Assembly: GCA_018303365.1 (NCBI GenBank)
Contig: JAGVYI010000019.1
Coordinates: 1-49,611 of the forward strand
Direction: 5' to 3'
Length of the DNA: 49,611 nt
From: Candidatus Woesearchaeota archaeon
GTDB lineage: Archaea > Nanobdellota > Nanobdellia > SCGC-AAA011-G17 > JACPNG01
Under the pieces are notes generated by a model. The model searched no databases and had not been told where the DNA came from. It saw only the letters and a program-made list of their open reading frames with translations. A program made the position numbers and the translations under genes. The number at the start of each line of letters is the position of its first letter. Position 1 is the stretch's first letter. Shown piece by piece: positions 20,517 through 49,376 of the stretch.

Positions 20517-22100
20517 GCATTATACTTGGAATACATGACTCAGCATTTGATTCTGGAGCAGCTGTATCTGTAGACGGAGAGATAAAAGCAGCAATCCATG
20601 AGGAAAGAACAAGCAGAATAAAGCACGAAGGCGGGTTTCCTAAAACATCAATCTCGGCAACGCTCAAGGCAGCAAACATAAGCCCTAAAGAAGTGGAAGT
20701 AATAGCTGTTGGAAATGTGCACGCAGAAGTACCATTGCAGCTCATGCAAGGATTTACCCAAATATCTCCACTACTCAACCCATTAAAATCAAGAAAAGAT
20801 TATTTGAAGATTTACTCCTACGAAAAATATATGGATTTCTATAGAAAGCATCTTTGGTTTAGTAAGATAAACTCAAAACTTTCGGGAAAGCTGCTCGAGA
20901 ATATGTTGAAAAAGGCAGGAATAAATGCAAGACTAGAAAGGGTAGATCACCACCTAAATCACGCAGCCTCGACATTCTATTCAAGCGGATTCAACAAATG
21001 TCTCATAATAACCGCCGATGCAAGAGGAGATGGCATCTCAACAACAGTAAATATTGGTACGATAAAAGATGGGATAAAAAGAATAGCAGCAACAAAGCAG
21101 GAAAACTCGATAGGACATTTCTACGGATGCATAACAGAATGTTTGGATTTCAAATACGGGGATGGAGAAGGAAAAACAGAAGCCCTTGCAGCATACGGAA
21201 AAGAATCTCCTATATATCAAAAACTTAAAAAATATATCAAGGTAAAAGACCTTAAAATAGAAGCGAATATGTATCCTTACCAAAATAAAAAATGTTGCTC
21301 TAGCAGGAGGCCTGTTTCTAAATGTTAAACTCAATCAGAGAATATTGCAAATCCCTGAAGTAAAGGACATTCATATTCACCCCGCAGCAGGGGATGGAGG
21401 GATTCCAACAGGAGCCGCACTAAACATAGCTGCAAGGCAAAAAAAAATAAAACCAAGAAGATGGAAGAGTGCATATCTTGGAAATGAATATAGAAACGAA
21501 CAAATAAAGCAAAGTCTGGAAAAGACAAAATACAAGTTTGAATACATTGAAGATATAGCGGGATACGTTGGAGAAGAAATACTGCCAAAAGGGCATATCA
21601 TTGGATGGTTCCAAGGAAGAATGGAATATGGACCACGAGCCTTAGGAAACAGAAGCATCCTGATAACTCCAAAAGATGAAAAATCCCCAGAAAAGTTAAG
21701 AGCAACAATAAAAAAAAGACCAGCATTCCAGCCATTTTGCCCAAGTATAGTAAAAGAATCTCAGAAAAAGTATGTAAAAAATCCAAAAAGAGTGGAAACA
21801 CCATTCATGATTCTTACCTTAGATGCAACAGAGAAAATGAAAGAGGAAGCTCCAGCAGTTGTATTCAAAGACATGAGTGTAAGAGTACAGACTGTAGAAA
21901 AGCAGGTAAATCCGTTATATCATAGGGTAATAAAGTCGTTTGGGAAAAAAACAGGGACACCGATACTTCTTAACACTTCATTCAACAGATCTGGCCAAGC
22001 AATAGTATACACCCCAGAACAGGCAATCTACGATATAAAGGCAGGACAGCTGGATTTTCTTATAATGGGGAACTATCTTGTTCATGGAAAAAGAAAATAA
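20513..22100 (+). pseudogene. NodU/CmcH-type carbamoyltransferase, broken into two frames (20513-21328 and 21345-22100)
   Basis: N-part GIHDSAFDSGAAVSVDGEIKAAIHEERTSRIKHEGGFP, HHLNHAASTF; C-part NVALAGGLFLNVKLNQRI...HPAAGDGGIPTGAAL, GRMEYGPRALGNRSI. Frame changes at about 21285-21300. Confidence 0.8.
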
Positions 22101-49112: not shown

Positions 49113-49230
49113 TGGGCCCGCTCGGATTCGAACCGAGGACCTCCCGATGACTGACTTAGCGCTATCAGTCGGCTAAGCTAAACTAACAAAGGCAAGGTTA
49201 CGTGCTCCAACCAGACTAAGCTACGGGCCC
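49113..49230 (-). tRNA. tRNA-Ile (GAT) with two introns (49173-49201, 29 nt; 49149-49162, 14 nt)
   Basis: Spliced: GGGCCCG TA GCTT AGTCTGGTTG GAGC A CCCGA CTGATAA TCGGG AGGTC CTCGG TTCGAAT CCGAG CGGGCCC A = 75 nt canonical cloverleaf; both junctions sit in BHB motifs. Confidence 0.9.
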
Positions 49231-49234
49231 GAAA

Positions 49235-49376
49235 CGCCTGGGGTAGGACTCGAACCTACGACCGCACGGTCTCTGTCAGCTGATAACAGCGTCACAGATA
49301 AAGAGAGGGTTCCTCTCATCATCGCGTGTGCTCTACCAATTGCCCCACACAAAAAGTGTGTCTGAGCTACCCAGGC
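49235..49376 (-). tRNA. tRNA-Asn (GTT) with three introns (22, 34 and 13 nt)
   Basis: Spliced: GCCTGGG TA GCTC AGTTGGTA GAGC A CACGG CTGTTAA CCGTG CGGTC GTAGG TTCGAGT CCTAC CCCAGGC G = 73 nt canonical cloverleaf; each junction fits NN^N bulges separated by a 4-bp helix. Confidence 0.9.

Follow-up and report, generated by a model that had tools for sequence, protein, structure and literature searches.

A predicted two-intron tRNA-Ile(GAU) gene with a non-canonical intron at position 27/28 that recurs in Candidatus Pacearchaeota

The window, by which we mean the whole 49,611-nt stretch of DNA that was analysed, carries a tRNA-Ile(GAU) gene on the minus strand at 49230..49113, which is missed by both default ARAGORN and Rfam RF00005. 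As laid out in the table, the gene is read as three exons separated by two short introns, one at the canonical position 37/38 and one at position 27/28. The coordinates, lengths and sequences of the gene and of both introns had been proposed in an earlier, sequence-only reading, and all of them proved correct, with the gene lying on the minus strand. A tRNA-Asn gene ends 4 nt before the start of the tRNA-Ile gene, and five introns are counted across these two adjacent genes.

Table. Layout of the tRNA-Ile(GAU) gene and the neighbouring tRNA-Asn(GUU) gene
Feature	Position in the window	Strand	Remarks
pre-tRNA-Ile(GAU) gene, 118 nt, 75 nt spliced (118 minus 43)	49113..49230	-	
Exon 1, from the acceptor 5' strand through the D arm to A26 and C27 (tRNA positions 1-27)	49202..49230	-	Homology of relatives stops at q177
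Intron 1, 29 nt, position 27/28	49173..49201	-	Removed in each of the six valid schemes; 10 further species have an intron at this position
GAGC, D-stem 3' strand and 5' strand of the intron 1 central BHB helix	49204..49207	-	
GCTT within intron 1, forming the 3' strand of its central BHB helix	49175..49178	-	4/4 pairs with GAGC, one of them G-U
D-loop GTTG, forming the 5' strand of the outer helix of intron 1	49208..49211	-	Partner CGAC at 49168-49171; 4/4 pairs
Exon 2, positions 28-37, CCGACTGATA	49163..49172	-	Anticodon GAT at 49164-49166
Intron 2, 14 nt, canonical position 37/38	49149..49162	-	CTGA/TCAG central helix, CCGA/TCGG outer helix, inner helix absent
Exon 3, positions 38-73	49113..49148	-	Homology resumes at q231
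tRNA-Asn(GUU), 142 nt, 73 nt spliced, three predicted introns	49235..49376	-	
tRNA-Asn predicted intron, D loop, 22 nt	49361-49340	-	
tRNA-Asn predicted intron, 30/31, 34 nt	49324-49291	-	
tRNA-Asn predicted intron, 37/38, 13 nt	49283-49271	-	

The splice sites were located by enumeration, in which the acceptor, D and T arms were held fixed and every removal of one or two segments that leaves a standard anticodon arm was considered, giving 5,491 schemes. Six of these produced five out of five anticodon-stem pairs together with T33, and all six remove exactly 49201-49173. Among the six, only the scheme put forward in the sequence-only reading also gives 4/4 central and 4/4 outer pairs of the bulge-helix-bulge (BHB) motif at both introns, so that its 75-nt tRNA-Ile(GAT) with a perfect anticodon stem is borne out as the one product compatible with tRNA and BHB constraints alike. 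The accompanying argument for intron 1, that its retention would leave a G-G mismatch at pair 27-43, was also correct, and a shift of the excised segment by one base in either direction breaks a stem pair. Once both introns are removed, the acceptor, D, anticodon and T stems are all fully paired. Intron-less genes in the same family (L161) and in another family of the class (L266) have exactly the anticodon arm obtained by splicing, CCCGACTGATAATCGGG, indicating that excision would restore a regular tRNA. BLAST matches to relatives repeatedly end at q177 and restart at q231, the former being the base that directly precedes intron 1 and the latter the base that directly follows intron 2. These comparisons support the reading of this locus as a two-intron tRNA-Ile(GAU) gene with introns at 27/28 and 37/38, which single-intron homologues in relatives match as well.

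Both introns have the features expected of a BHB motif, namely a central helix of 4 bp in which exon pairs with intron and, on each side of it, a 3-nt bulge that bears the splice site. The central helix of intron 1 (GAGC/GCTT) is flanked by the bulges ACG and AGC and that of intron 2 (CTGA/TCAG) by the bulges TAG and TCA, and the outer helix is complete, with four of four pairs, at both. On the intron side, the inner helix of intron 1 comprises 3 bp (TAA/TTA) when placed strictly, or 4 bp if extra unpaired bases are allowed, while intron 2 lacks an inner helix and has a loop of 7 nt, so that neither intron is a textbook strong hBHBh' motif in this part. The description of intron 1 as a full hBHBh' therefore held for its central and outer helices and went too far for its inner helix. 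In shuffled sequences, the combination of central and inner helix of intron 1 arose with a probability of 0.002, a modest value for one motif taken alone; the corresponding values for 27/28 introns of other species ranged from <0.00005 to 0.005. Folding of the unspliced RNA counts against the proposed motif, as the minimum-energy fold does not favour the BHB of intron 1 and forcing its central and outer helices costs ~7 kcal/mol relative to that fold. The RNAfold result for the unspliced precursor was rejected as proof, the minimum-energy structure being a non-native fold. The outer helix of intron 1 occupies positions 29-32, which are shared with the outer and central helices of intron 2. Because both full motifs need these positions, they cannot coexist, and we infer that the introns are removed in sequence or that intron 1 is cleaved while its outer helix is unformed.

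The archaeon, tiny and uncultured, is of the Pacearchaeota type, and the MetG encoded in the window has its closest matches in genomes that bear the name Candidatus Pacearchaeota. The order was surveyed by a pattern search of 104 genomes, after which the genes were read. An intron at 27/28 was found in at least 11 species from seven families (f1, f4, f5, f9, f11, f13 and f15), a lower bound because the order-wide pattern requires GAGC and genes with other D-stem strands are mostly missed; two genomes that share one intron sequence (G097 and G100) were counted once. One of the two pattern matches in G062 was rejected as a 27/28 intron for want of a surrounding tRNA, as were three matches outside the order (G273, G229 and G150) among the class-wide matches listed. 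Between the 3' end of the intron and GAGC or GAGT of the D stem, four of four positions pair in nine species and three of four in two, and the 3' strand of the central helix is GCTC or GCTT in 9 of the 11. In G057, where the D-stem strand is GAGT, the central helix is still paired through U-G. The outer helix, complete in the gene studied here, has only 2-4 of its 4 pairs in the other species with a 27/28 intron. The middle of the intron varies in sequence and mostly folds into a helix of 3-9 bp, and an 11-nt intron without an inner helix occurs in G052. Within the single genus g13, one genome has no introns in this gene (G014), two have the 37/38 intron only (G088 and G078) and one has both (G097), a distribution that shows gain or loss, in one direction or the other, inside one genus. 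The comparison with sister genomes that the sequence-only reading had suggested revealed this gain or loss within g13. The exceptional status that the sequence-only reading had implied for the gene was overstated, given a 27/28 intron in seven families and a neighbouring tRNA-Asn gene with three introns. As judged from these genes, the order has the 27/28 intron as a recurring trait, one that has been gained or lost within it. This intron was present only alongside the 37/38 intron, which occurs in 11/11 genes with the 27/28 intron and in 9/29 genes without it (Fisher p = 0.00015), a link to be read as a tendency only because the species are not independent and the introns were assigned by eye.

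When introns are allowed, ARAGORN reports the locus as Thr(tgt) i(39,38), that is, as a tRNA-Thr(UGU) gene with a single 38-nt intron. We rejected this assignment, which we consider highly improbable, since in the enumeration no single-intron scheme of standard length has a fully paired anticodon stem, the body of the gene matches the tRNA-Ile of relatives, and a tRNA-Thr(UGU)-like gene that has a body of its own and the T loop TGCAAAT lies elsewhere in the genome (G000:C7:22047-22142). A decaying pseudogene, in which the 27/28 insert would be a disabling mutation, is very unlikely: another copy could be missing from a genome that is only ~91% complete, but all four stems pair fully after splicing, and inserts at the same place in 11 species keep the splice-site pairing while the rest of the insert varies. 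Furthermore, no second tRNA-Ile(GAU), which the sequence-only reading had named, together with homologues lacking both introns, as counting against it, was detected in the 90.9%-complete genome. That the insert arose in the assembly or binning of this metagenome-assembled genome is barely credible; the source assembly is fragmented, but inserts at this position are also seen in several families whose genomes were assembled independently, and the splice-site pairing of the insert is correct.

The reading that best accounts for these results, to which we assign a probability of roughly 93%, is that of a functional, single-copy tRNA-Ile(GAU) gene whose two introns are most likely cut by EndA and whose exons are joined by RtcB. 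After transcription, the D-stem GAGC would pair with GCTT near the 3' end of intron 1, and with this pairing both splice sites of intron 1 would fall within bulges of 3 nt (AC^G and AG^C). At intron 2, the anticodon-loop strand CTGA would pair with TCAG. EndA would cut both introns, presumably one after the other since the outer helix of intron 1 uses bases that the helices of intron 2 need, and ligation of the exons by RtcB would leave a regular 75-nt tRNA-Ile.

Both enzymes are encoded in the genome, RtcB on contig C18 (577 bits) and EndA on contig C5, the latter with matches to PF01974 and PF02778. This EndA is a single unit of ~185 aa with N- and C-terminal domains and is the one PF01974 match in its own genome, where the absence of a second gene is weak evidence taken alone because the genome is 91% complete. 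Among 98 relatives at least 80% complete, PF01974 was matched in 93, nearly all with exactly one match above the cut-off. A relative with a one-contig genome of 0.5 Mb (G111) has two PF01974 matches, as expected for an alpha-beta enzyme, indicating that a beta-like second gene is detectable by this search. The second (beta) subunit gene of an (alpha-beta)2 enzyme was thus found neither in the genome itself nor in nearly all of the 98 relatives. The epsilon-2 type was not matched either, as that enzyme is a three-unit protein of ~390 aa with an ARMAN-specific loop (ASL) and alignment to 4fz2 gave no insertion at the ASL position. The best solved relative of this EndA is the N. equitans alpha subunit, and the protein is colinear with M. 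jannaschii 1a79 (residues 19-185 on 6-171) with single-residue gaps. The catalytic Tyr and His are 9 residues apart here and in 1a79, compared with 15 in N. equitans and 14 in ARMAN-2, as counted from the alignments. The 9-residue spacing was present in every EndA with a recognised search motif, including the one in this genome, the motif being unmatched in 7 of 30 loci. A single unit of ~180 aa that is colinear with the M. jannaschii protein points to an enzyme of the alpha-4 type.

It is possible, if on balance doubtful, that a single EndA in this order, though lacking the extra loops described from Crenarchaea and ARMAN, acts on relaxed motifs at many positions in tRNAs, such as that of the 11-nt 27/28 intron of G052. 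Nearly all EndA proteins read from the order (L009, L234-L261) have a conserved (I/V)KPG loop before the catalytic His, and the lysine of this loop, just before the His, is a candidate specificity determinant. The loop absence rests on the position of the ARMAN loop, as alignments to crenarchaeal chains appear to start beyond the crenarchaeal loop, and with that loop lying outside the alignments the conflict with the literature on EndA specificity is suggestive and not proven. Genomes with many introns, some of them with relaxed motifs, and with one loop-less EndA only would offer a testable exception which, if true, breaks the published rule linking broad specificity to (alpha-beta)2 or epsilon-2 enzymes.

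It is well established that archaeal tRNA genes can carry several BHB introns and have them at non-canonical places (PMC4090602, PMC4033280, PMC8450103), and a high density of them has been described in some Asgard archaea (PMC11291895). Those of Thermoproteales and other archaea (PMC4090602, PMC4033280) are likewise short, lie away from 37/38, occur several to a gene and have BHB or relaxed motifs, whereas the lineage here is Pacearchaeota. Position 27/28 is absent among the examples named in the accessible part of the text of PMC4090602 and may already be recorded. Pyrobaculum genes such as the tRNA-Pro UGG of P. islandicum similarly carry 2-3 introns at canonical and non-canonical positions (PMC4090602); Pyrobaculum species have an (alpha-beta)2 EndA, in contrast to the one EndA gene seen here. 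Nanoarchaeum equitans and Nst1 (PMC3655853) belong to the same broad DPANN group. In Nst1, introns are present in tRNA-Ile and tRNA-Tyr only and the beta subunit gene was not identified (PMC3655853), whereas about ten intron-containing tRNAs are seen here on a preliminary reading, several with introns at non-canonical places. A search of the open-access literature, with partial coverage, found no paper on non-canonical tRNA introns in Pacearchaeota. Since the 27/28 intron is real and occupies the same spot in related species, the gene is a solid example of the known archaeal non-canonical BHB tRNA introns and not a new kind. The case is clear, has comparative support and comes from an understudied group, in which a single genus includes species with zero, one and two introns. 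As the gene was overlooked or misnamed by standard tRNA finders, genomes of this sort probably have more tRNA genes than are called.

Further tRNA genes with unusual structure were noted elsewhere in the genome. A tRNA-Glu(UUC)-like sequence (L126, G000:C13:52889-52957) is without a normal 5' part, and a pattern search gave no matching 5' half elsewhere in the genome; it could be a split gene with its 5' half in missing sequence, or a fragment. A probable tRNA-Ile(UAU) in the same region (L126, G000:C13:51317-51437) has a D-loop intron and an anticodon-loop intron, and a tRNA-Ala(UGC) that closely follows the 3' end of the 16S rRNA (L143, G000:C9, near 21471-21527) has an apparent T-loop intron. 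Two tRNA-Thr-like genes with introns (L132 and L142, at G000:C16:22581 and G000:C7:22047) share an unusual T loop, TGCAAAT instead of TTCRANN. Lastly, a tRNA-Asp(GUC) with a probable D-loop intron (L019, G000:C4, near 31171) is misnamed by ARAGORN as Pro(tgg).
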